Shown here: one piece after another, positions 2,644 through 11,735 of the stretch | Layout of the letters: each line of letters starts with the position of its first letter | Numbering within the stretch: position 1 is the stretch's first letter | Origin: Oligoflexia bacterium | Lineage (GTDB): Bacteria; Bdellovibrionota; UBA1018; CAIMNF01 | Length of the DNA: 61,060 bases | Assembly: GCA_903845155.1 (NCBI GenBank) | Contig: CAIMWN010000232.1 | Location: 1-61,060 of the forward strand | Direction: 5' to 3' | Notes under the pieces: generated by a model | The model's database searches: none | What the model was told of the DNA's origin: nothing | The model's input: the letters and a program-made list of their open reading frames with translations, nothing else | Position numbers and translations under genes: made by a program

Positions 2644-3418
2644 TCTTTTTTATTCGTCTCTGGTTCAAAACCCAAAATGCGCCAAGAAAAGTGAGAATGG
2701 AAATAAATTGGCTCGTCGAGAGCACCCCTTCAATTATAAATCCTCGAATGGAGTCACCCCGATAGATTTCAATGATGCTCCTAATTATTGGATAGAGCAT
2801 AAAATAAGTGAGGCCCACTTGACCGTCAAAACGCTTGTGCTTAAAAATATACATCATTCCAAAAAAAAGGATGAACAGCGATAGCGCCTCATAGGCTTGA
2901 GTGGGGTGAAGCGGGATTCCTCTAAATTCAGCATCCACCAGTTCCGAGTGAAGCGTCACTCCCCAGGGCATGTCGGTGGGCCTACCATAACAACAACCGG
3001 CGCCCAAGCAACCCAAGCGACCGAACGCGTGAGCAAGCACTACTGGGGGAGTCAGAACGTCGCTCATCATCCATGCGGATATTTTATGCTTTTTGAGCCA
3101 AAAGAGAGCGTAAGCCGTAGCAGCTAAAAGCCCACCAAAAAAGACCAGTCCACCTTCCCATACTTTGAACATTTCGACAGGATTCTCTAAGAAGTAATCA
3201 AGGCGCGTGATGATAAATAGGATGCGGGCTCCCACAAATCCCACCATCAAGAGCCAAAAGCCCAAGTCTGAGGCAAGGTCAGGATCTATATTTCTTTTAG
3301 TGGCGAGATTTCGGACGAGCGCAATGGCGGATAAAAAACCCACCGCGATAAAAAATCCGTAAGTATGAAGGGGGATTTTAATGAAACCTAAGTTCAATTC
3401 AAGCAATATTGGGTGCAT
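2618..3418 (-). CDS. lgt: prolipoprotein diacylglyceryl transferase
   Basis: Lgt transfers diacylglycerol from phosphatidylglycerol to the lipobox cysteine of prolipoproteins, the first step of lipoprotein maturation at the inner membrane. The 266-residue protein has about seven membrane segments. It opens with HPILLELNLG and the conserved HTYGFFIAVGF, and carries the signature region HAFGRLGCLGAGCCYGRP (about residues 130-147), the Cys-rich version found in delta-type proteobacteria, then HPTQAYEAL. It overlaps lspA upstream by about 20 bp, so two consecutive steps of lipoprotein processing are co-translated. Length and motifs are normal for the family. Confidence 0.95.
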   Translation of the reverse strand: MHPILLELNLGFIKIPLHTYGFFIAVGFLSAIALVRNLATKRNIDPDLASDLGFWLLMVGFVGARILFIITRLDYFLENPVEMFKVWEGGLVFFGGLLAATAYALFWLKKHKISAWMMSDVLTPPVVLAHAFGRLGCLGAGCCYGRPTDMPWGVTLHSELVDAEFRGIPLHPTQAYEALSLFILFFGMMYIFKHKRFDGQVGLTYFMLYPIIRSIIEIYRGDSIRGFIIEGVLSTSQFISILTFLGAFWVLNQRRIKKNEFKADIL

Positions 3419-4724: not shown

Positions 4725-4741
4725 TTGGCACAACTCTCGCA
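4725..4741 (+). promoter_or_regulatory. sigma-54 type promoter of the DksA-like gene
   Basis: TTGGCACAACTCTCGCA matches the sigma-54 consensus TGGCAC-R-N4-TTGCW at all positions but one (TCGC for TTGC), with correct GG-to-GC spacing. Transcription would start near 4752, leaving a leader of about 98 nt before the ATG at 4850. Confidence 0.7.
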
Positions 4742-4849
4742 ATACCTATGACTGTGAGGCAACCAAGATGGATGCGGCACAAAACACGGATGAATTTTTG
4801 GACTTAAGGATTGAGTCAAAACGATGAAAGTAAAAAGGAGTAACAAGTC

Positions 4850-5260
4850 ATGAAGCAAGAACAACTAAAAAAATTCCAAGCACTTTTCGAAGTCCAAAAA
4901 AAGGGCTTACTTTACTCCAATCAATTTATTAACGAAAATTTTTCAATGAACAGTGATGAGATGTCTGATGAACTTGATTTATCAAGCGTAGAGCTTGAAC
5001 AAAGCATGCGCGTACGCCTTCGTAACCGCGAAGCGCTTCTGATCAAGAAGATCGATCAATCACTCGAAAGAATTCAAGCGGGAACGTTCGGTGTCTGCGA
5101 CAGTTGTGAAGAAGACATCGACCTTACCCGCCTTGAAGTACGCCCAACTGCAACCCTGTGTCTTTCATGTAAAGAACACGAGGAAATGCAGGAAACCCGC
5201 TCTGCGGATGGGCGTGAATCAAAAAGCATGGGTTCTAAAATCAATCTTAGAATCGCATGA
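4850..5260 (+). CDS. DksA/TraR-family zinc-finger protein
   Basis: The protein resembles DksA, which binds the secondary channel of RNA polymerase and tunes initiation together with ppGpp. The 136 residues form an N-terminal coiled-coil part and a four-cysteine zinc finger CDSC...CLSC (about residues 83-107) separated by EEDIDLTRLEVRPTATL. The coiled-coil tip has DELDLS, close to the DxxDxA of active DksA. A good Shine-Dalgarno (AAGGAG) lies nine bases before the ATG. A clear paralogue is at 11352-11735. The sigma-54 promoter upstream suggests conditional expression. A structured untranslated region follows immediately. Confidence 0.88.
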   Translation: MKQEQLKKFQALFEVQKKGLLYSNQFINENFSMNSDEMSDELDLSSVELEQSMRVRLRNREALLIKKIDQSLERIQAGTFGVCDSCEEDIDLTRLEVRPTATLCLSCKEHEEMQETRSADGRESKSMGSKINLRIA

Positions 5261-5278
5261 CCCTCCAATCGTGATGAC

Positions 5279-5545
5279 GGTGTAAATCACTTACACCTGA
5301 ACTAACGCTCAGGATGAGCAAAGTTTTTAAGATTACGGACGAACTAGTCAACCAGTCAGCCACAGCAGTCGATCATTAACTGCAAACATCAATGTCCGAA
5401 ACAATGTCTCTGAAGTTCCTGTGCCAGGAAGGCACAGAGTTAAATAAATTCGCTCAGGACGAGTGAATAGCTGTACTCAAATGGATTTGAGTTGCCTTGG
5501 TTTCGAATACTTATGGATGAGCGTTCGAGATCAAGGCTCCCTTAT
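5279..5545 (+). ncRNA. candidate CsrA/RsmA-sequestering RNA
   Basis: This non-coding stretch folds into successive hairpins, five of which present GGA in the apical loop. They are: 5307-5319 (GCTC, loop AGGAT, GAGC); 5419-5437 (CTGTGCC, loop AGGAA, GGCACAG); 5448-5468 (8 pairs with one GU, loop AGGAC); 5475-5492 (ACTCAAA, loop TGGA, TTTGAGT); and 5494-5537 (outer stem GCCTTG/CAAGGC, middle stem TCGAA/TTCGA, tip CTTA-TGGA-TGAG). A sixth motif, ACGGA at 5335-5339, may pair at long range with 5394-5398. A first hairpin without GGA is at 5279-5297. This is the layout of CsrB/RsmZ-type RNAs, which bind CsrA through GGA in hairpin loops. Whether it is a separate transcript or the 3' UTR of the DksA-like mRNA is unknown; the poly-U tail is weak. 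Confidence 0.6.
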
Positions 5546-5559
5546 TTAATCAAAATTTA

Positions 5560-6699
5560 TTAATTAAAAAACTTCGTCAGCAACTCACTCTTTTGCAGTT
5601 GTTCATCGAGTTTTTTTGCTTCCCTAAAAAAACTCGTCGGGAGTCCCAGGGTTCTAAAGTATTGCACCAAGAAACTTCTCGATTTTTGTTTGTTGGTAAA
5701 TGCCCCCGAGCGATCTTGGGCATCTAACATCGCATCAAAAAACTGAGCGCCGTCCTTTACCTTGCCCAAATGATAGACAAAATATGCAAGAGCATAATTA
5801 GTAGATTGTTTAATTTCAACCACGTGTTTTAAAGGCAATACTGTCTGTTCAAACACTAAATACTTTTTAGAATCGTCATTAATGTCTTGAAATGGTTTTA
5901 ATCGATCAGGAATAACCACATCAGGGACCATTGCAATCTTACCCCTAAAGATCACTTGATAAATAGAAAGCCAGCGAAGGAGACGTCTCAACTTGTGTTC
6001 GCCATTTGCCAAGTCATGCATGTCTAAATTTGCATCAGTAATTTCCTTTAAATGCGCCTCTATTCGCTTTTTAATATAAGTCGCATCGTCTTCTTGGGTA
6101 GGAATTTCAAACTTTTCAATATCTTTAATGAGTTGTGATAACAGTGGCGCGTCTGCCTGAGTGGCATCGAACCAACCATTGTCCGTAATTAAACGCTGAA
6201 GGTCGATTTGTTTTTTAAGTAGATCTTGCTCTAAAATCGCAATGGCTCGCCTCTTATAATGGCGAAGCTTTTTAGCTTTCTTAATAAAGTCCATTGAGTC
6301 TCTCACTGATCCCACTAGCACTTCAGCTGTCTTGAATTTATCCCGATAGGATTTCAATAGCCGGACTGTCCTTGGATGATCTGCTACCCAGGGTGCTTCT
6401 TGATAAAACTCGTAAATCCCCGCAGACTTAAATAGCGCTTGCCGGACTCCTTCACCTTCGGTCCAGGCTAACATCATGTCGTGGACATTCGCCGCCGATT
6501 TAGAAATCTCCTCAAGCGGAACCAAGGGCACAATGAATCGTTCCTTATAAATGGCTTTACGGTTTCGCTCTTCGCTGTATTTTTGAATTGCAAGATTGCA
6601 AGCTCCATTGGCCTGAACTTGTTGAGCATAAAGAGGAGCAACAAGAGAACAAATTCCAAGCCACACGATGAAGGCGTATCGTAAAACGGTAAAACTCAT
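5560..6699 (-). CDS. secreted helical protein of unknown function
   Basis: The 379-residue protein starts with a signal peptide (hydrophobic AFIVWLGICSLVAPLYA, cleavage near AQQ). The mature part is rich in charged and aromatic residues and looks mostly helical. Around residues 225-250 it has HDLANGEHKLRRLLRWL, which weakly recalls the His/Arg-rich helices of CHAD domains, but I do not assign it to that family. There are no clear enzyme motifs. It stands alone, convergent with the DksA-like gene and its structured downstream region, and is separated by 134 bp from the beta-helix genes. Function unknown; probably periplasmic or exported. Confidence 0.6.
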   Translation of the reverse strand: MSFTVLRYAFIVWLGICSLVAPLYAQQVQANGACNLAIQKYSEERNRKAIYKERFIVPLVPLEEISKSAANVHDMMLAWTEGEGVRQALFKSAGIYEFYQEAPWVADHPRTVRLLKSYRDKFKTAEVLVGSVRDSMDFIKKAKKLRHYKRRAIAILEQDLLKKQIDLQRLITDNGWFDATQADAPLLSQLIKDIEKFEIPTQEDDATYIKKRIEAHLKEITDANLDMHDLANGEHKLRRLLRWLSIYQVIFRGKIAMVPDVVIPDRLKPFQDINDDSKKYLVFEQTVLPLKHVVEIKQSTNYALAYFVYHLGKVKDGAQFFDAMLDAQDRSGAFTNKQKSRSFLVQYFRTLGLPTSFFREAKKLDEQLQKSELLTKFFN

Positions 6700-11351: not shown

Positions 11352-11735
11352 TTAATGAACGAATTCGAAACGGTGCCCGAGAATGCTGGTAGCACTCATT
11401 TTTTCTTCCTCTTCTTTGCAAGCAATGCAAAGAGTGGTGGTAGGGCGGGCTTGAAGGCGGCGGAGCTCAATTGGTTCTTCACAGCTTTGGCATGCACCGT
11501 ATGAGCCTTCATCGATTCTTTTGAGGGCTTCAGTGATTTTTCTAAGAGTAAACGTCTCGCGGTTCTTAAGCTGCATTCTCATGCTTTGTTCGATGTCAGC
11601 ATTTGCCTGGTCGACTTCGTCTTTGTCTTCAGGCCTTACCATCAGGTTTTCATCCACGATAGTTACATTCATTAAAATTTGATCACGCTGTTCCGTGAAT
11701 ATCTTTTTAAACCGAACTAGGTCCGTTTTTCTCAT
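11352..11735 (-). CDS. DksA/TraR-family zinc-finger protein, second copy
   Basis: The 127-residue protein is a paralogue of the one at 4850-5260, alike from the coiled coil (IEQSMRMQLKNRE) through the zinc finger CQSC...CIAC (about residues 79-103). Its coiled-coil tip reads DEVDQA, an exact DxxDxA as in active DksA, whereas the other copy has serine in place of the alanine. It follows the mglA-like gene by 30 bp in the same direction and is probably co-transcribed with dnaX-recR-mglA. It is shorter than E. coli DksA (151 residues). It probably binds RNA polymerase; regulation of stable RNA is inferred from the family only. Confidence 0.86.
   Translation of the reverse strand: MRKTDLVRFKKIFTEQRDQILMNVTIVDENLMVRPEDKDEVDQANADIEQSMRMQLKNRETFTLRKITEALKRIDEGSYGACQSCEEPIELRRLQARPTTTLCIACKEEEEKMSATSILGHRFEFVH

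Follow-up and report, generated by a model that had tools for sequence, protein, structure and literature searches.

The window analysed here, a stretch of DNA of 61,060 nt, carries on its plus strand a dksA/traR-like gene (Table 1) whose product matches Pfam PF01258 (2.5e-12) and PF21157 (1.7e-9) and shares 65–70% identity with its 10 congeneric orthologues, all from uncultured Bdellovibrionales/Oligoflexia-type MAGs. The initial annotation had described this gene as sigma-54 driven and the DNA behind it as non-coding, and the sequence agrees with both descriptions. The motif TGGCAC-N5-TCGC(A/T) is found upstream of the gene in 10 of the 11 congeneric genomes, with TGGCAT-N5-TCGCT in the eleventh, and rpoN is encoded in the window's genome; positions 5261–5560 lie between the stop codon of the dksA-like gene at 5260 and the end of a convergent gene at 5560. 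The hairpin at the predicted transcript start has a stem that varies among species and a loop that reads AGGAT in nine of the 11 genomes and AAGAT in the window and in one relative (L007).

Table 1. Features of the dksA-like locus, in window coordinates
Feature	Position	Strand	Basis or remark
Sigma-54 (-24/-12) promoter, TGGCACAACTCTCGCA	4726-4741	+	match conserved among congeners
Leader hairpin at predicted transcript start	4752-4782	+	leader alignment and folds
Leader GGA hairpin, GACTTAAGGATTGAGTC	4801-4817	+	hairpin scan
dksA/traR-like gene	4850-5260	+	136 aa, C4 zinc finger
Hairpin GGTGTAAATCACTTACACC, GGA-free	5279-5297	+	window-specific, missing from relatives in the alignment
GGA hairpin 1, GCTC-AGGAT-GAGC	5307-5319	+	fold and hairpin scan
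GGA hairpin H2, CTGTGCC-AGGAA-GGCACAG	5419-5437	+	compensatory change in 6/7 pairs, 8 species
GGA hairpin H3, ATTCGCTC-AGGAC-GAGTGAAT	5448-5468	+	compensatory change in 5/7 pairs
GGA hairpin H4, ACTCAAA-TGGA-TTTGAGT	5475-5492	+	of 6 pairs, 2 compensatory and 3 invariant
GGA hairpin CTTA-TGGA-TGAG	5510-5521	+	tip of longer terminal hairpin 5494-5537
Long terminal hairpin (H5), TGGA tip	5494-5537	+	counterpart of the relatives' terminator-like hairpin

All five GGA-loop hairpins proposed for the non-coding region were recovered on the plus strand. By a strict count (GGA inside a loop of 3–6 nt and at least five contiguous pairs), positions 5261–5560 contain four such hairpins versus 0.08 expected, and none of 2000 dinucleotide shuffles reached four. 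By a looser count of four pairs, the same interval contains five and is the top 300-nt stretch of the 61-kb window with both strands scanned. A sixth GGA (ACGGA, about 5335) falls outside any good hairpin, and the number of GGA triplets by itself is unremarkable, as the initial annotation had also held. The fold of 5261–5560 has an energy of −86.4 kcal/mol (z = −3.9), which none of 200 shuffles equalled in stability. The window's terminal hairpin lacks a T-run behind it.

A DNA search for the region in 57 relatives returned only itself. Such a search is blind to the relatives because conservation is limited to the loops and the pairing, so anchoring on the orthologous gene was needed. With this anchor, a GGA hairpin array was found directly behind the dksA-like gene in all 10 congeneric genomes. 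Over the 11 genomes there are 51 GGA hairpins in sense versus 5 in antisense, and GGA is the commonest of the 64 hairpin-loop triplets in the 11 3′-UTRs (45 versus 7 for its complement, TCC). The spacing of the hairpins is narrow in eight species, with 29–32 nt from H2 to H3 and 24–26 nt from H3 to H4.

When the four corresponding hairpins (H2–H5) of the eight species were compared, anchored on GGA, 16 of 26 pairs showed compensatory changes and 90% of cells were paired; none of 500 shuffles matched this, and slid controls gave at most six compensated pairs. Because these hairpins had been picked for having GGA, the whole 3′ regions were also aligned unguided with MAFFT, and on these alignments RNAalifold predicted hairpins where GGA is conserved. 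Of 50 pairs, 16 were compensated (22 of 51 with the window included), which offsets the selection bias of the H2–H5 count only in part. Loop conservation among relatives had been named as a check on the original proposal, and we find that the stems have diverged yet stay paired through compensatory changes, with the GGA loops retained. Extended motifs around the GGA are likewise strand-specific: CAGGANG occurs 21 times in sense and never in antisense (0.8 expected), and WCANGGANGW seven times in sense and never in antisense (0.2 expected). In sequence they agree with CsrA/RsmE-type sites. For comparison, SELEX gave the consensus RUACARGGAUGU, whose GGA sits mostly in the loop of a hairpin (PMC7652899), and CANGGANG hexaloops are sites of high affinity (PMC4894983).

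The presumed ligand is encoded in the same genome, another point on which the initial annotation could be checked: csrA is present in one copy with its RNA-binding residues intact, and 55 of the 57 genomes searched have it. In two genomes, both about 82% complete (G041 and G043), dksA-like genes are present and csrA was not found. R44 is kept in all 30 aligned CsrAs, and all 30 have a C-terminal extension with N55, a residue linked to FliW binding (PMC13407953). The fliW gene adjoins csrA, and FliW is likewise found in 55 of the 57 genomes; it is a protein antagonist for which an anti-correlation with CsrB-type RNAs is on record (PMC4894983).

The leader, the open reading frame and the array most likely form one transcript, in which the array is the 3′-UTR of the dksA-like mRNA. 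This reading of the layout is based on the short distance of 17 nt between the stop codon and the first 3′ hairpin in three relatives (L009, L012 and L013), on the lack of any sigma-70-like site near the end of the open reading frame that is common to the congeners, and on the lack of a GacA box. The GacA box is the palindrome TGTAAG-N6-CTTACA; the best match to a GacA/UvrY box across all 11 loci was 8–9 of 12 positions, with no palindrome found. Two candidates were rejected: an independent sigma-70 promoter ahead of the array, for which the loci have no site in common, and the hairpin GGTGTAAATCACTTACACC, which resembles the GacA palindrome but has the wrong spacing and is not in the relatives. 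The promoter, the leader hairpins and the short gap behind the stop codon are features that would suit a putative protein-coding, CsrA-antagonizing transcript. The candidate Csr/Rsm-type RNA of the initial annotation is supported by the arrays of the relatives, the covariation and the presence of csrA, but the RNA is most likely a 3′-UTR rather than the product of a free-standing gene.

Other sigma-54-like sites in the same genome have no GGA arrays downstream, except for the leader hairpins of a dksA paralogue. In that genome, the dksA-like paralogue L096 (51%; G000:C5:12969-13367) comes with a separate sigma-54 site, TGGCACGAACTTCGCA, and with the leader GGA hairpins AGCTAATGGATGGCT and TCCACGGATTGGA, but is without a 3′ array. 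A second DksA-like gene in the window (11352–11735, minus strand) is convergent to the first, with about 5.8 kb encoding large secreted-looking proteins between the two. Five relatives (L004, L005, L007, L008 and L011) have a related convergent DksA-like gene behind the array, within about 0.3–0.8 kb of the first.

Beyond the genus, the array varies, and several genomes lack it or have it in weak form. In other families of the class, 70 loci gave 106 sense versus 52 antisense GGA hairpins behind DksA-like genes (Wilcoxon p 3.5e-4, kinship among loci ignored), and three or more hairpins were present at 17 of 72 loci in sense and at 5 in antisense. The richest array outside the genus, with seven GGA hairpins versus none in antisense, follows two dksA-like genes in tandem (L130, G026:C26, minus strand, 3021–3238). 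Twenty DksA-like loci that represent other lineages of the phylum showed neither an array nor such a promoter. A covariance model built on the 3′ part (R1) recovers the array in ten genomes of the genus at about 10^-9 or better, including the window's own, in which it finds this array alone; beyond the genus it gives weak matches only. Those weak matches that were inspected have a single or few GGA hairpins and were rejected as arrays. At an unrelated locus (L233, G039:C72), a lone GGA-loop hairpin, AAGCCTCTGCTCTCAAGGATGAGAGTGGGGGCTT, resembles the terminal hairpin of the array.

The Rfam CsrB model, suggested at the outset as a check, does not recognize the array: a scan of the window gave nothing at the gathering threshold, and low-threshold scans gave sub-threshold matches only. 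In one relative, a full-length but sub-threshold CsrB match (L010:1995-2237, plus strand; 18.3 bits versus 71, E 0.48) falls exactly on the array. A search of a library of open-access papers for CsrA in Bdellovibrio or Bdellovibrionota found no report of such an array.

Taken together, the sequence evidence is best explained by a multi-site CsrA sponge that the array forms within the 3′-UTR of a sigma-54-transcribed dksA-like mRNA, a reading to which we assign a probability of about 0.8. Against this reading stand the variability of the array beyond the genus, the lack of a T-run behind the window's terminal hairpin, and the two genomes with dksA-like genes in which csrA was not found. From the hairpins, the motifs and the layout we infer CsrA binding, co-transcription, and titration with its consequences. 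Firing of a sigma-54 activator would produce one transcript, which would encode the DksA-like regulator and display five to nine GGA hairpins in its leader, in the array behind the stop codon and in the terminal hairpin. These hairpins would hold several CsrA dimers and so free other mRNAs from CsrA, and the leader sites would probably also let CsrA control or stabilize the dksA-like mRNA. FliW, encoded beside csrA, would then be a second, flagellum-linked antagonist. We also lean, with less assurance, towards the wider view that a dual-function mRNA under sigma-54 control, combining a DksA-family regulator with UTRs that remove CsrA, is conserved in this class of Bdellovibrionota.

It is possible, though unlikely, that the array is instead a stand-alone CsrB/RsmZ-like sRNA, transcribed from a separate promoter that lies within the dksA-like open reading frame or shortly behind it; that gene would then be no more than a neighbour. 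The GGA architecture would be alike, and RsmW of Pseudomonas aeruginosa offers a precedent as a 3′-UTR-type RsmA-sequestering sRNA (PMC7821165); however, the 17-nt gap behind the stop codon in three relatives, the presence of a similar hairpin in the leader of the dksA-like mRNA, and the failure to find a common sigma-70-like site or a GacA-box palindrome in the congeners all argue against a stand-alone sRNA. Marginally less probable still is that the sites regulate the dksA-like mRNA only in cis, with CsrA repressing or stabilizing it and no titration in trans. In E. coli, CsrA represses dksA (PMC7652899); the dksA-like leader here has GGA hairpins, and the 3′ hairpins could block exonucleases. 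The main role of the GGA hairpins could be autoregulation or mRNA protection. Nevertheless, four to six sites that lie past the stop codon, well removed from the ribosome-binding site, and keep their spacing are in excess of what control in cis would need.

We consider it improbable that the hairpins bind some other GGA-recognizing factor or are decay or termination elements with incidental GGA loops. Isolated GGA-loop hairpins do exist elsewhere, as at L233, but the extended CsrA-type motif (CANGGANG/CAGGANG) is found in sense only and has been retained while the stems were replaced. A chance cluster, for which the unremarkable number of GGA triplets might speak, has a negligible probability given the shuffles, none of which in 2000 was as rich, and the covariation, and it is refuted by the arrays of the 10 relatives. 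The preferred reading, a CsrA sponge in the 3′-UTR of the dksA-like mRNA, would mean that multi-site titration of CsrA by RNA exists outside the Gammaproteobacteria, alongside FliW, and, on the wider view of a conserved dual-function mRNA, that stringent-type transcription control is hard-wired to Csr control in FliW-using bacteria. In E. coli, CsrB/C increase in response to ppGpp and DksA, and CsrA represses dksA (PMC7652899); since these two arms would be fused here in one transcript, their link would become directly testable. The gene-anchored hairpin signature provides a way to seek sponges that sequence searches overlook.

CsrA is widespread, but Gammaproteobacteria are the main group in which RNA antagonists of it are known (PMC4894983); no CsrB-family RNA has been characterized in Geobacter (PMC13407953). 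Like CsrB/CsrC and RsmX/Y/Z, the array has several GGA-loop hairpins on one non-coding stretch of RNA and is predicted to sequester CsrA dimers. Unlike them, it probably lies on a dksA-like mRNA with a sigma-54 promoter and no GacA box found, belongs to another phylum in which FliW is present, and scores below the Rfam thresholds. RsmW of P. aeruginosa (PA4570), listed as a 3′-UTR-type sRNA (PMC7821165), is, as proposed for the array, an RsmA/CsrA-sequestering RNA that derives from the 3′ part of an mRNA, a likeness drawn from its description, whereas here the host gene encodes a DksA-family regulator, the leader has sites too, and the linkage extends across several genera of the class. Among mRNA antagonists, the 5′ leader of Salmonella fimAICDHF, as cited in PMC4894983, is an mRNA UTR that antagonizes CsrA, but it belongs to a structural operon in a genome with CsrB/C. 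In Campylobacter jejuni, the flaA mRNA and FliW together titrate CsrA (PMC4894983), a case of an mRNA antagonist in a FliW-containing bacterium such as we propose for the dksA-like transcript. The two sites of flaA lie in its leader and probably accommodate one dimer, whereas the transcript predicted here has five or more, mostly within the 3′-UTR of a gene for a regulator.
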